From contig NZ_CP022600.1 in the NCBI RefSeq assembly GCF_002952215.1, forward strand, positions 2,666,001 through 2,730,000: a stretch of 64,000 nucleotides of DNA. Reading direction: 5' to 3'. Under the pieces are notes generated by a model, which saw nothing but the letters and a program-made list of their open reading frames with translations, searched no databases and was not told the origin of the DNA. The number at the start of each line of letters is the position of its first letter. Position 1 is the first letter of the stretch. Below are positions 48,583 through 61,532 of this stretch, one piece after another. Made by a program: the position numbers and the translations under genes. Origin of the DNA: Porphyrobacter sp. HT-58-2 (lineage in GTDB: Bacteria; Pseudomonadota; Alphaproteobacteria; Sphingomonadales; Sphingomonadaceae).

Positions 48583-49179
48583 ATGAGCAACATCCTCTAC
48601 CTCACCGCCAGCATCCGCTCCGAGGCCCATTCCGTCTCGCGCGGGCTCGGCCAGCGGCTGGTCGACGGGCTTGCCGCGAAGACCGGCGCGAGTGTCACCA
48701 CCCGCGATCTCGCCGCCAATGATCTGCCTTTCGTCAGCGCCGAACGCTTCGCCGCGAACCTCACTCCGGCCGCCGAGCGCACCGCGGAGCAGGCGGAGCT
48801 TGCCGCCATCGCCGACACGCTGATCGCCGAATTGCAGGCCGCCGATACCATCGTGATTGCCAGCCCGATCTACAATTTCGGCCCGCCCGCCGTGCTCAAG
48901 GCCTGGGCCGATCTGGTCGCCCGTGCCGGAACGACCTTCCGCTACACTCCGACCGGCCCGGAAGGTCTGCTGACCGGCAAGACTGCCTATCTCGCGATTG
49001 CCTCAGGTGGCACCCCGGTGGGCGCCGACTTCGACTTCATGAGCCGCTGGCTGACGTTCTTCCTCGGCTTCATCGGCATCACCGATGTCGAAGTGGTCGC
49101 CGCTGACGGGATCATGGGTCAGGACGGCGAGGCCAAGATCGCCGCCGCGCAGGAAGCTGCGCAGAAGCTGGCGGCATGA
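48583..49179 (+). CDS. azoR: FMN-dependent NADH:quinone/azo reductase
   Basis: 198 residues, flavodoxin-like AzoR family: MSNILYLTASIRSEAHSVSRGLG phosphate loop, ASPIYNFGPPAVLKAWADLVARAGTTFRYT and the C-terminal IGITDVEVVAADGI. Reduces quinones and azo compounds with NADH. Likely cotranscribed with pirin. Confidence 0.92.
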   Translation: MSNILYLTASIRSEAHSVSRGLGQRLVDGLAAKTGASVTTRDLAANDLPFVSAERFAANLTPAAERTAEQAELAAIADTLIAELQAADTIVIASPIYNFGPPAVLKAWADLVARAGTTFRYTPTGPEGLLTGKTAYLAIASGGTPVGADFDFMSRWLTFFLGFIGITDVEVVAADGIMGQDGEAKIAAAQEAAQKLAA

Positions 49180-49224: not shown

Positions 49225-49279
49225 TGCCAGACCTCGGTTAGACGCCGGTCAGACCCCTGCCAGACCCCCTCCAGACCCC
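49225..49279 (-). repeat. 11-base tandem array A beside a parS-like site
   Basis: Five contiguous 11-base units. Minus strand, from the parS side: GGGGTCTGGAG, GGGGTCTGGCA, GGGGTCTGACC, GGCGTCTAACC, GAGGTCTGGCA. Unit length about one helical turn. It lies 12 bases from the parS-like site at 49292-49307. Lies in the convergent gap between azoR and the EamA gene. Confidence 0.9.
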
Positions 49280-49291
49280 GGTCTGCGAGGG

Positions 49292-49307
49292 GGTTTCACG
49301 TGGAACA
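49292..49307. promoter_or_regulatory. parS-like site A
   Basis: GGTTTCACGTGGAACA on the plus strand; its reverse complement TGTTCCACGTGAAACC differs from the parS consensus TGTTNCACGTGAAACA in the last base only (15 of 16). Intergenic. No parA or parB is in the window. Confidence 0.65.
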
Positions 49308-49316
49308 CGGCGCCGC

Positions 49317-50219
49317 TCAGAGCTTGGGCCGCATCAGCTGCCATTTGAAGATCGTGCGGCTCGGGCGGATGACGATGATCGCCACCCCGATCAGCGCCAT
49401 CGTCCCGCCGACGATCAGCGGCCAGTGGATCGTGTCCCCCGTCAGCCATGTCCCGAAGGCAATCGTCAGCAGCGGGGTCAACAGGGTCAGCGGCACGATC
49501 AGGTTCGCATCATGGGCCTGAAACAGCCGGAAATAGGCCGAATGCGCGCCGACCGAAACCACCACGCCGGCGAACAGGACACAGCCCGCCACGGCCAGCG
49601 GCGCAGCGGTAACTGCCTCTATTTGCCCGCTTTCCAGCACCAGTGACCCCGGCAGCATCACCCCCAGAGAGGCCAGCGCCGCCCAGGCCTGAAGGCTCAC
49701 CGCGCCGACCTCCAGACGCTTTACAAAGACCGAGGCGAAGGCGCCGATGAAGACCCCGGCAAAGGCGAAGCCGAGGCCCACCGGATCACCCGCCTCCGAC
49801 GGCGCGCCGATCGCAAGGCCCACGCCCCCCAGCGCCAGCGCCATGCCGAGGCCCCGCCGCCAGCGCACCTCCTCGCCCAGAAAGAAAATCGCAAACAACA
49901 CGGTCAGCGGCGCGCCCGATAGGTTGACGATCCCCACGGCCGAAGGGCTCGCGGTCTGCAAGCCTATGAATTGCAAGCCGAAGCTCCCTCCGGTGATGGC
50001 AAATCCGATCAGCAGCACCAATCCCAGCCGCGCCGGCCGCCCGCGCATCAGCAGCGGGAACAGCACCGCCAAGACTACGCCCGAGCGCAGCACGGTATAG
50101 AACAGCGGCGGCAGGCCAAGGCTCGATACCGCGATCTTTGAGACCACGACATTCATCGCCCAGGCCACGTTGCAAAACAGCATGATCCCGAGCGCGGAGA
50201 GAGGCAGGCTTTTTGGCAT
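49317..50219 (-). CDS. EamA/DMT-family exporter
   Basis: 300 residues with ten membrane helices in two EamA repeats (GIMLFCNVAWAMNVVVSKIAV; LAIGAPSEAGDPVGLGFAFAGVFIGAFASVFVKRL). Drug/metabolite transporter superfamily, substrate unknown. Start shares its first base with the nadE stop (TGATG), so it is coupled to NAD synthetase, perhaps by chance. Confidence 0.9.
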   Translation of the reverse strand: MPKSLPLSALGIMLFCNVAWAMNVVVSKIAVSSLGLPPLFYTVLRSGVVLAVLFPLLMRGRPARLGLVLLIGFAITGGSFGLQFIGLQTASPSAVGIVNLSGAPLTVLFAIFFLGEEVRWRRGLGMALALGGVGLAIGAPSEAGDPVGLGFAFAGVFIGAFASVFVKRLEVGAVSLQAWAALASLGVMLPGSLVLESGQIEAVTAAPLAVAGCVLFAGVVVSVGAHSAYFRLFQAHDANLIVPLTLLTPLLTIAFGTWLTGDTIHWPLIVGGTMALIGVAIIVIRPSRTIFKWQLMRPKL

Positions 50220-56352: not shown

Positions 56353-57402
56353 TCATCCCTTTTTCAGCATGGCAAGGCTGTCGTGCTGGCAGGCCAAAGC
56401 GCAGGCACCGCGGGCCATCGACAGGAAATTGTCATCGCCCCGTTCGGTGCGCACAACGAAGGCGGCGCTGAACACGGCAGTCGAGACACCGTGGAGCGCT
56501 CCTACCACATAGTCGCGCCAGATTTCCTCCACGCTGAGTGGTACCCCGCGCGCGGTCATTTCAGCGCAGTAAAGCTCGAGCAATTCGCGTTCATGCGTGC
56601 GGCGCAACACGTCCCCGATCCCGCAGCCGAGGAAATAGCCTAAATCTGTCAGACCATTACCGACAGTAAGCGTCTGCCAGTCGAGCACGGCGATCGGCTC
56701 TGCTCCGCCCTTGATATCGAACAGCAGATTGTCGAGCCGGAAGTCGCCATGGACCAGGCTGGTCTTCTCTACCGCCCGGTCGGTCGTGGCGGTGATCTCT
56801 GCCAACTCCTCGCATAGTGCCATGTATTCAGGTTCCAGCACCCCGGCGTAACGCTCGCGGAAGATGGCCTGAGCCTGAGGGTAGAGCGCCTTCACCTGTG
56901 CAGCGGCAGTGGGATCGGGCTGGAGCCAGTCAGCATCGAGGATCGCCGGATTGTGCCAGCTTGGCGCGTGGAGCGCTGCGGCCTGACGCACGCCTTCGCG
57001 CGCATCCTCCAGCGAGCATCCCGCAATCTGGTTCCCACCCCGCGCCGGACCAAGATCTTCAAACAGAAGGAAAAACGTCGCCCCGTCCGGCGCTATTTCG
57101 GCAAACAGGACCCGGGGGGTGCGCACCGGCAATTGCGGCGCAAGCTCGCGGTAGAAGCGCACTTCCTTGGCATAGAGCCCCAGCATCGCCGCTGTGCCGC
57201 GGCTGGTGGGATCGGCAGCAGCGAACTTGCCCGCCAGGGTCACCGGCCCTGCCTCATCGCCAAAATCCAGGGTGAAACGCACCGAGTCGCCCACCTGCCC
57301 GGTGCCGATCGGCTCCCAGTGCCAGTCACTTGGCGCACGGCCCAGCACCGCTTCCCACCAACCGGGGGTGATTGCGTCCGGGTGCGCCGGAAATCCGTTC
57401 AT
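56353..57402 (-). CDS. Aminoglycoside/choline-kinase-fold phosphotransferase
   Basis: 349 residues of the APH superfamily: SLVHGDFRLDNLLFD with catalytic D220 and N225 (H218-G-D220), and IAVLDWQTL (D241 metal ligand). The branch resembles choline/ecdysteroid-kinase-like proteins of unknown substrate, often paired with acyl-CoA dehydrogenases or AttH-like proteins in alphaproteobacteria. Here it is paired with the AttH-like gene. Not a resistance enzyme as far as sequence shows. Confidence 0.8.
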   Translation of the reverse strand: MNGFPAHPDAITPGWWEAVLGRAPSDWHWEPIGTGQVGDSVRFTLDFGDEAGPVTLAGKFAAADPTSRGTAAMLGLYAKEVRFYRELAPQLPVRTPRVLFAEIAPDGATFFLLFEDLGPARGGNQIAGCSLEDAREGVRQAAALHAPSWHNPAILDADWLQPDPTAAAQVKALYPQAQAIFRERYAGVLEPEYMALCEELAEITATTDRAVEKTSLVHGDFRLDNLLFDIKGGAEPIAVLDWQTLTVGNGLTDLGYFLGCGIGDVLRRTHERELLELYCAEMTARGVPLSVEEIWRDYVVGALHGVSTAVFSAAFVVRTERGDDNFLSMARGACALACQHDSLAMLKKG

Positions 57403-57461
57403 TTCGTCCTCTCCCGCTTACGGGATAGGCAGCACAGCCGAGCTCGGCAATGGGCTTGGCG

Positions 57462-57477
57462 TGTTTCACATGAAACA
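57462..57477. promoter_or_regulatory. parS-like site B
   Basis: TGTTTCACATGAAACA: matches the parS palindrome TGTTTCACGTGAAACA at 15 of 16 bases (A for G at position 9). It lies in the divergent gap between the phosphotransferase and psd. Confidence 0.65.
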
Positions 57478-57498
57478 CCGCGCAAGCGCGCGCGGGAG

Positions 57499-57586
57499 GG
57501 GGTCTGGACGCGGGCTAAGCAGGGTCTAAACGGAGCAAGACCCGATCAAGCGGAGGTTTGACACCGGGTAAGACGCGTTTGGCTCT
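57499..57586 (+). repeat. 11-base periodic array B beside parS-like site B
   Basis: Starts 21 bases past the site: GGGGTCTGGAC (57499), GCGGGCTAAGC (57510), AGGGTCTAAAC (57521) are clear 11-base units; the phase continues more weakly to CGGGTAAGACG (57565, exactly 66 bases from the first). The unit closely resembles that of array A (GGGGTCTGGAG), and the array is on the same side of its parS-like site. Confidence 0.75.
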
Positions 57587-57679
57587 GGCCGGGCGAGGAG
57601 GTTCAGACTAGAGCAACCCCGCCTTTTCCCACTCCCGGCCTGCCACGCGTGGGCCATCACACAGCGACCCCCCAAATCC

Positions 57680-58531
57680 ATGTCCTCAGCTTTCATCGCG
57701 CTCCAGCACCTTTTGCCCCAGCACGCTCTGTCGCGGCTTGCCGGACGGCTCGCCGACAGCCGCCGCCCGTGGCTGCGCGATCGCCTGATCCGCCGCTTTG
57801 CCGCCGCCTATGCGGTCGACCTTTCCGAAGCCGAGCGCCAGATCGGCCAGTTTGCCAGCTTCAACGACTTCTTCACCCGCGAGCTGAAGCCGGGCGCCCG
57901 CCCGCTGGCGGATGCGGCGCAGTTCATCCTCTCGCCTGCCGACGGCGCGATCAGCCAGTGCGGCACGATTACCGCCGGGCGCATCCTGCAAGCCAAGGGG
58001 CGCGATTACAGCGTGACCGAAATCCTTGGCGGCGATGAGGCAGAGGCAGCGCGGTTCGAAGGCGGGACGTGGATGACGATCTACCTCTCCCCGCGCGATT
58101 ACCACCGCGTGCACATGCCCGCTGCCGGAACGCTGGCAGCCACGACCTACCTTCCGGGCAAGCTGTTTTCGGTCAACACCGCCACCGCTGACGGGGTCGA
58201 CAGGCTGTTCGCCCGCAACGAACGCCTCGCTTGCCTGTTCGACGGGCCGGATGGGCGCTTTGCGAGCATCATGGTGGGCGCGATGATCGTCGCCGGGATT
58301 GATACCGTCTGGCCGAGCAAGCACCGGACCCACGGCGCTGCATTGCTGCATGAGGATTTCGGCGGCACCGGCCCGGTGCTCGCGGCAGGGGCGGAAATGG
58401 GCCGCTTCTACCTTGGCTCCACCGTAGTCTTGCTGTTCGAGCCCGGACGGGTGCAATGGCTCGACGGGCTGGAGGCGGGAACTGCCTTGCGCATGGGGCA
58501 GGCAATCGGACGACGGCTTGGCGCCGGGTGA
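57680..58531 (+). CDS. psd: Phosphatidylserine decarboxylase
   Basis: 283 residues, the bacterial membrane-type proenzyme. Pyruvoyl self-cleavage motif L-G-S-T at 245-248 (FYLGSTVVLLFEPG), with SPADGAI at 86-91 and the HRVHMP segment near 142-147 of the Asp-His-Ser charge relay. Makes phosphatidylethanolamine. Begins about 200 bases after parS-like site B. Confidence 0.97.
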   Translation: MSSAFIALQHLLPQHALSRLAGRLADSRRPWLRDRLIRRFAAAYAVDLSEAERQIGQFASFNDFFTRELKPGARPLADAAQFILSPADGAISQCGTITAGRILQAKGRDYSVTEILGGDEAEAARFEGGTWMTIYLSPRDYHRVHMPAAGTLAATTYLPGKLFSVNTATADGVDRLFARNERLACLFDGPDGRFASIMVGAMIVAGIDTVWPSKHRTHGAALLHEDFGGTGPVLAAGAEMGRFYLGSTVVLLFEPGRVQWLDGLEAGTALRMGQAIGRRLGAG

Positions 58532-61382: not shown

Positions 61383-61532
61383 CGCGAACAACCCTTGCAG
61401 GTGCGCAGGGCCGGGGCAAGCCGGGGCTGACTGGGGTCTAGGGGATGATGCGGAGGGTTCGGGCAGGCCCGACAAAACCGGCGGGCGGCTAGACCGGCAC
61501 GATCCAACAGCCAAGTACGAGGCCCCGCCCCC

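Follow-up and report, generated by a model that had tools for sequence, protein, structure and literature searches.

The closest described relatives of the elements reported here are the parS sites of chromosomal ParABS systems, which are reported as restricted to the ori region, whereas NBS are widespread (PMC7383237). Counts of 20-23 parS sites near the origin are described as high (PMC7333895, PMC5815017), and in Caulobacter extra parS clusters are reported to be tolerated mainly in a zone of ~500 kb (PMC5815017). Another account likewise places most parS in the ori domain and also mentions half-parS binding (PMC7022226), a property reported for ParB of Pseudomonas aeruginosa as well (PMC10419367). 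A search of openly accessible papers, at the level of titles and the opening lines of abstracts, found no report of dispersed parS with 11-bp arrays.

In plasmids, the ParR-type iterons of parC are 11-bp direct repeats that stand in tandem next to a partition function. The arrays of Porphyrobacter sp. HT-58-2 resemble them in their repeats, but the units are degenerate and dispersed at ~50 chromosomal loci. Rut sites share with them a C-rich RNA strand, an 11-nt repeat and a position 3' of genes in the HT-58-2 lineage; unlike rut sites, the arrays have a sequence-specific unit and a DNA phase with parS, and in one relative (G041) they are not C-rich. With chromosomal ParABS the elements have in common the reported 16-bp consensus (PMC7383237), a parAB locus with a parS cluster and a joint change of par-locus and dispersed sites, whereas the ~50 sites round the HT-58-2 chromosome and the 11-bp array on one side set them apart. 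Noc and NBS are similar in having a ParB-family reader and sites described as scattered over the chromosome (PMC7383237). However, the NBS consensus given there is TATTTCCCGGGAAATA and the HT-58-2 sites follow that of parS; moreover, NBS are described as absent near the terminus and Noc as confined to Firmicutes, whereas HT-58-2 sites occur in every quarter of the chromosome. Finally, ParB of P. aeruginosa is reported to contact scattered half-sites outside the origin (PMC10419367, PMC7022226), but these are described as heptamers, whereas here we find full palindromes, some of which have a GAAC resembling a third half-site at a constant distance.

The window, by which we mean the whole stretch of 64,000 nucleotides of HT-58-2 DNA that was analysed, holds two copies of the element, with the following features:

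48583..49179, plus strand: flavodoxin-fold reductase-type gene whose end faces the array of the 49292 copy
49225..49279, minus strand: 11-bp array of the 49292 copy, held-out score 44.4; minus-strand units GGGGTCTGGAG GGGGTCTGGCA GGGGTCTGACC GGCGTCTAACC GAGGTCTGGCA
49292..49307, no strand: second dispersed parS-like site GGTTTCACGTGGAACA, 2 mismatches
49317..50219, minus strand: gene for an EamA-family transporter, with 9 bp between its end and the 49292 site
56353..57402, minus strand: gene of the phosphotransferase family (Pfam APH) that starts 59 bp away from the 57462 site
57462..57477, no strand: dispersed parS-like site TGTTTCACATGAAACA, 1 mismatch to TGTTTCACGTGAAACA
57478..57498, plus strand: 21-bp spacer, the first strong unit lying at offset 21 (phase 10 of 11)
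57499..57542, plus strand: 11-bp phased array, 4 scored units, held-out score 32.8, with weaker units to ~57586; units GGGGTCTGGAC (57499-57509), GCGGGCTAAGC (57510-57520), AGGGTCTAAAC (57521-57531), then GGAGCAAGACC
57680..58531, plus strand: phosphatidylserine decarboxylase gene (psd), on the array side of the 57462 copy

The sequence-only reading had described the 57462 site as matching parS at 15 of 16 positions, with three 11-base units and then weaker ones beginning 21 bases past it, and had placed a second element ~8.2 kb away on the opposite strand, all of which was borne out. The 15/16 match that it implied for the 49292 site is actually 14/16. The 57462 array also differs from shuffled sequence: the lag-11 self-match of 57478-57587 is 0.404 versus 0.281 (P 0.005), and 11 is the best of the lags from 5 to 25. 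Sites within 3 mismatches number two in the window (49292 and 57462), compared to 0.08 expected from 100 shuffles. When both strands were scanned with a unit matrix trained on 44 HT-58-2 arrays, the two window copies being left out, these copies ranked first (44.4 at 49236, minus strand) and second (32.8 at 57499, plus strand), followed by an array scoring 9.6; the maximum of 100 Markov simulations was 16.9. Two adjoining units of like kind also occur at 61401-61443 (CGGGGCTGACT GGGGTCTAGGG at 61422, with a low held-out score of 5.8), and no parS-like site was found with them. Rfam at gathering scores returned nothing but a tRNA in the window.

The 49292 copy has a convergent context and the 57462 copy lies between a divergent gene pair, a minority context. 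No relative's site was found at the position of the 57462 copy, for which no orthologous position was traced. In the regions upstream of psd in relatives (66 loci scored of 80), the best site has 4 mismatches and the best array scores 11.5. Orthologues of psd were tried as an age test of the 57462 copy and rejected: psd alone aligns (blastn, 13 loci), and the comparison is therefore uninformative on the age of the copy. Synteny is broken at 57402-57680, where the neighbours of psd differ from those in the 13 relatives compared.

The HT-58-2 genome, a single contig of 3,279,145 bp, contains 55 parS-like sites at up to 2 mismatches, compared to 1 for a reversed-pattern control; 47 places have at most 1 mismatch and 12 carry the exact consensus. 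Only 7 of the dispersed sites are exact, most having 1-2 mismatches. The 55 sites examined for arrays (54 of those at up to 2 mismatches plus one 3-mismatch site) include 46 with a one-sided, 11-bp-phased array scoring 15 or more, and the opposite flank scores below 8 in all 46. Counted from the site end, 39/46 arrays begin in phase 10, 0 or 1 modulo 11 (P 6e-16). A de novo period-11 model gave the unit GGGGKCTRRMS, at 27.3 bits per locus versus 6.9 in shuffles. Nothing evident is common to the copies outside the site and the degenerate units. The earlier suggestion of a two-part composite of fixed order that is not due to chance thus holds genome-wide. Site and array go together at 46 of the 55 sites, but both parts are also found apart. 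The six par-locus sites (482-487 kb, beside parA and parB) have no array, the period-11 model giving 12.9 versus 12.4 in shuffles for this cluster, and neither do three of the 49 dispersed sites examined (655086, 799219 and 1590933). Conversely, among the stretches examined at least seven arrays scoring 30 or more, at 470630, 1058074, 2401744, 2618315, 2643964, 2879664 and 3181874, lack any site of up to 3 mismatches over a distance of 120 bp.

Two features were seen beside individual sites. At 177223, a hairpin followed by a T-run (ggcgccgcgagcattcgcggcgcccttttt), resembling an intrinsic terminator, lies between the array and the site of one composite. At 1353681, 1368225, 2264449 and others, a short G+C-rich inverted repeat, noted by eye, adjoins the site on the array side.

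We also examined how widely such sites occur. At up to 1 mismatch, TGTTYCACGTGRAACA is present 1-8 times in 32 and 10-89 times in 29 of the 61 genomes of the genus, the higher class including 28 of the 60 congeners. In a draw of 397 genomes from the phylum, which contained one other congener, HT-58-2 had 51 sites and none of the other 396 had more than 12. ParB was searched for in 30 genomes, of which 3 gave no match and G041 gave fragments only. In a midpoint-rooted ParB tree of HT-58-2 and 26 relatives picked by class, all 21 genomes that have at least 12 sites cluster together (100/100), and the 6 genomes that have 3-8 sites fall outside this cluster. The array unit is not in clean agreement with this tree, as G013 (22 sites, 2 own-type array matches, 74% complete) pairs with G011 (57 sites, 41 matches).

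Many sites of the relatives lie at the positions of HT-58-2 sites. By a rule requiring a flank match of E<=1e-10 within 400 bp, this holds for 18/23 in G034, 19/23 in G041, 11/18 in G022, 12/16 in G003 and 4/8 in G025; the HT-58-2 DNA compared consisted of selected loci, and the unmatched sites are not to be read as absences. A looser rule added G058 (3/5), but two G022 matches and one G003 match obtained with it rest on 32-63 bases and the stricter counts are preferred. Requiring an array in both genomes left 41 of the 64 orthologous pairs for a comparison of array side, and in 39 of these 41 both genomes have it on the same flank, across three unit spellings. The fixed geometry proposed for the two window copies is therefore found in array phase and array side alike. 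By relative, the same-side counts are 11/11 in G022, 12/12 in G003, 1/1 in G025, 4/4 in G034 and 11/13 in G041, where those for G034 and G041 rest on motif lists made after inspection and are post hoc, as are the C/G and GAAC-side counts given below for these two genomes, and some of the G041 arrays look weak.

The unit itself changes in place. At HT-58-2 670369, 1812008 and 2264449, three lineages have three different units. Period-11 models exceeded shuffles in G003 (41.2 vs. 8.9), G022 (46.4 vs. 8.5) and G025 (27.5 vs. 11.4), and in G041 (24.8 vs. 8.3), where the unit is GCWACGACNNS and 18/23 loci are over 12 bits. The arrays of G034 are moderate (13.3 vs. 8.1), with GCAAAGC-type units in the 7/23 loci over 12 bits, and an array in G058 is weak at most (13.0 vs. 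10.5); G038 gave 18.1 vs. 12.1, but there period 10 scores higher than 11. Period 11 outscores 9, 10, 12 and 13 in HT-58-2, G003, G022, G025, G034 and G041. At unit position 7, A prevails in G022 (71%), G in G003 (73%) and, slightly, G in HT-58-2 (54%). With the HT-58-2 unit as the sole query, an array was detected at 3/23 G034 and 0/5 G041 loci; the arrays of these genomes look mostly absent by that measure because their unit differs. All site loci of G022 (18/18) and G003 (16/16) have an array, but they were drawn by the array pattern, and the frequency of array-less sites is not estimable from them; an array without a site occurs at four loci in each. At one G041 site (L143) the parS palindrome is the core of a longer, perfect one of 36 bp (AAAATGGCAA...TTGCCATTTT) that could serve as a bidirectional terminator too.

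The 38 intergenic composites of HT-58-2 comprise 20 in convergent gaps, 13 in tandem gaps with the array first, next to the upstream stop, 2 in tandem gaps with the order reversed and 3 in divergent gaps; gene calls came from a codon-usage script, by which 8/46 composites fall in a called ORF. When all 80-600 bp gaps of this DNA are compared, those with a site are convergent in 20/37 cases and those without one in 21/156. Convergent sites number 12/18 in G022, 8/16 in G003, 3/8 in G025, 15/23 in G034 and 11/23 in G041, and 5/10 and 4/7 in the further relatives G058 and G038.

This context bears on an RNA-level reading, in which the array would be a Rho utilisation site, ParB at parS a roadblock and the composite a terminator: transcription of the array-side gene would yield a C-rich 3' RNA with cytosines every 11 nt, on which Rho would load. 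The array side faces a gene stop in 33/38 intergenic HT-58-2 composites, and the array-first excess in tandem gaps (13 to 2) becomes 21 to 4 with G022 and G003 included (P 0.0009). RhoTermPredict is described as using C/G>1 and cytosines every 11-13 nt over 78 nt (PMC6407284). Measured as C/G over 78 nt of the transcribed strand rather than by the whole of that procedure, the RNA strand is above 1 in 43/46 arrays of HT-58-2, 16/16 of G003, 18/18 of G022 and 6/6 of G034. However, the G041 arrays share their loci, and mostly (11/13) their side, with those of HT-58-2, yet C/G exceeds 1 in only 3/15 of them, and the most fixed base of the HT-58-2 unit, a C on the G-strand (93%), is a G in that RNA. 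Rho loading would also neither need nor explain the fixed DNA phase with parS, and the 57462 copy sits between divergent genes. The Rho-site reading therefore fits the HT-58-2 lineage well but fails in G041; it is weakened, and we regard it as unlikely, though deserving of weight.

A separate matter is which protein reads the dispersed palindromes. A single ParB_N match in HT-58-2 is strong, at 118 bits; it is parB, which lies with parA next to the cluster at 482-487 kb. In G022 the palindrome is exactly TGTTCCACGTGGAACA at 52/61 sites and at none is it TGTTTCACGTGAAACA; the changed spelling is found at 7/8 sites of the par cluster (418-423 kb) and 45/53 dispersed sites. Since both arms have changed at dozens of G022 loci as well as at the par locus, it is likely that one protein, ParB, reads the dispersed and the par-locus sites alike. 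This co-change is the strongest evidence at the sequence level that the dispersed sites are true parS, although it is no proof of occupancy. Thus the HT-58-2 family has the palindrome (55 sites), a cognate parB and, from the spelling shift in G022, a shared specificity, but not the location near the origin that is usual for parS, dispersed sites being present in all four quarters. The genome has two more ParB_N-domain matches, scoring 45 and 28 bits; their open frames, 680 and 765 codons long, lie at 1851587 and 591228.

The dispersed palindromes might instead be read by a different factor, either a regulator or a paralogue akin to Noc. Several of these have central changes (CATG, CGCG) that are absent from the six par-cluster sites, and the two additional ParB_N-domain proteins would be candidates. 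However, their matches are weaker than that of ParB, the Noc consensus differs, Noc is reported in Firmicutes only (PMC7383237), and a second factor does not account for the joint shift in G022. We consider a reader other than ParB improbable.

With the par locus taken as ori, the dispersed sites fall into successive distance quarters as 15/10/15/9 in HT-58-2 and 17/12/13/11 in G022. Exclusion from the terminus, as for Noc, was considered and is not supported, the far quarter holding 9/49 and 11/53 sites, respectively. Directional loading was likewise considered, and strand bias by replichore gave no indication of it (10/8 and 15/13 arrays). The largest gap between HT-58-2 sites is 1812-2068 kb (P 0.69). 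Regular spacing along the HT-58-2 chromosome is not claimed (P 0.19 with the 49 dispersed sites and 0.10 with the composites); in G022, with length taken as 2.96 Mb, P was 0.02.

A third half-site accompanies some palindromes. At 63 sites of G034, G041, G058 and G038, GAAC lies exactly 6 bases past the palindrome in 38/126 flanks, against an expectation of 0.67 for any one offset, and it is never present near both ends of a site. With this spacing, GAACR and the GAAACA half are one 11-bp turn apart. At up to 2 mismatches, the resulting 26-base pattern occurs in 21/41 genus genomes, mostly in several copies, and as a single copy in each of 7/355 other genomes of the order; some of the genus matches are par-locus sites whose echo is weaker (GAAT, GACC). 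GAAC at that offset is rarer in array-rich genomes (8/182 flanks), and its relation to the array side is mixed (2 same and 4 opposite in G041, 3 same and 1 opposite in G034). It is possible that the array units are in-phase echoes of half-parS; such an echo can be seen in part in HT-58-2 and in GAAC but not in the G041 units.

The composites might also be a dispersed repeat family, mobile or REP-like, in which palindrome and repeats spread as a unit without a role. The many copies, their very variable number between species and the absence of the 57462 copy upstream of psd in the 66 relatives scored would agree with this, although synteny is broken there. Yet the copies are alike only in the site and the degenerate units, orthologous positions are kept while the unit changes in place, and the composites are enriched in convergent gaps, so that we hold such a family to be very unlikely. 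G-rich runs can seem periodic in G+C-rich DNA, but the reversed-pattern control (1 vs. 55) and the held-out, simulation and shuffle controls leave chance or a composition artefact practically no standing.

The explanation that we favour, by a modest degree, is that the composites are dispersed ParB-loading stations whose array provides a platform for a fast-evolving DNA-binding partner. It addresses what we observe, namely the distribution, the composite geometry, the orthologous conservation, the same-side arrays with changed units and the co-change; ParB occupancy, a reader for the array and a function of the composites are what we infer. The cell's single canonical ParB would load at each of ~50 chromosomal parS sites. 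The array, on one defined side and in helical register with one unit per 11-bp turn, would form a cooperative binding platform, bound either by a sequence-specific partner or by ParB itself touching degenerate half-sites, and the unit preferred by the partner would evolve quickly between lineages. The stations would be distributed over the whole chromosome, chiefly in gaps in which few promoters are affected, convergent 3' gaps presumably being safe places away from promoters, and may serve chromosome organisation beyond the origin through ParB/SMC loading or anchoring. Against ParB-loading stations are the known restriction of parS to the origin, the mostly inexact dispersed sites and the existence of some arrays without sites and of some dispersed sites without arrays. 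The weak array signal of G058, the preference for period 10 in G038, the imperfect agreement of array unit and ParB tree, the fit of G-type arrays to the Rho-site rules and the lack of strand bias by replichore also count against them. A more far-reaching version, which we offer tentatively, is a genome-wide centromere network of ~50-90 ParB-loaded parS stations with one-sided, helically phased satellites, in which the unit would be replaced between species while the place, side and period of the satellite stay fixed.

If this is true, bacteria would have a counterpart of those centromeric satellites that evolve quickly in step with a reader protein of their own. The contrast between 10-89 and 1-8 sites within one genus makes the reason for the clustering of parS near ori testable in close relatives. 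Should a reader that co-evolves with the arrays exist, the ParB/SMC machinery would gain a new partner, and the rapid co-evolution between a DNA satellite and the protein that binds it could be studied in a simple system.
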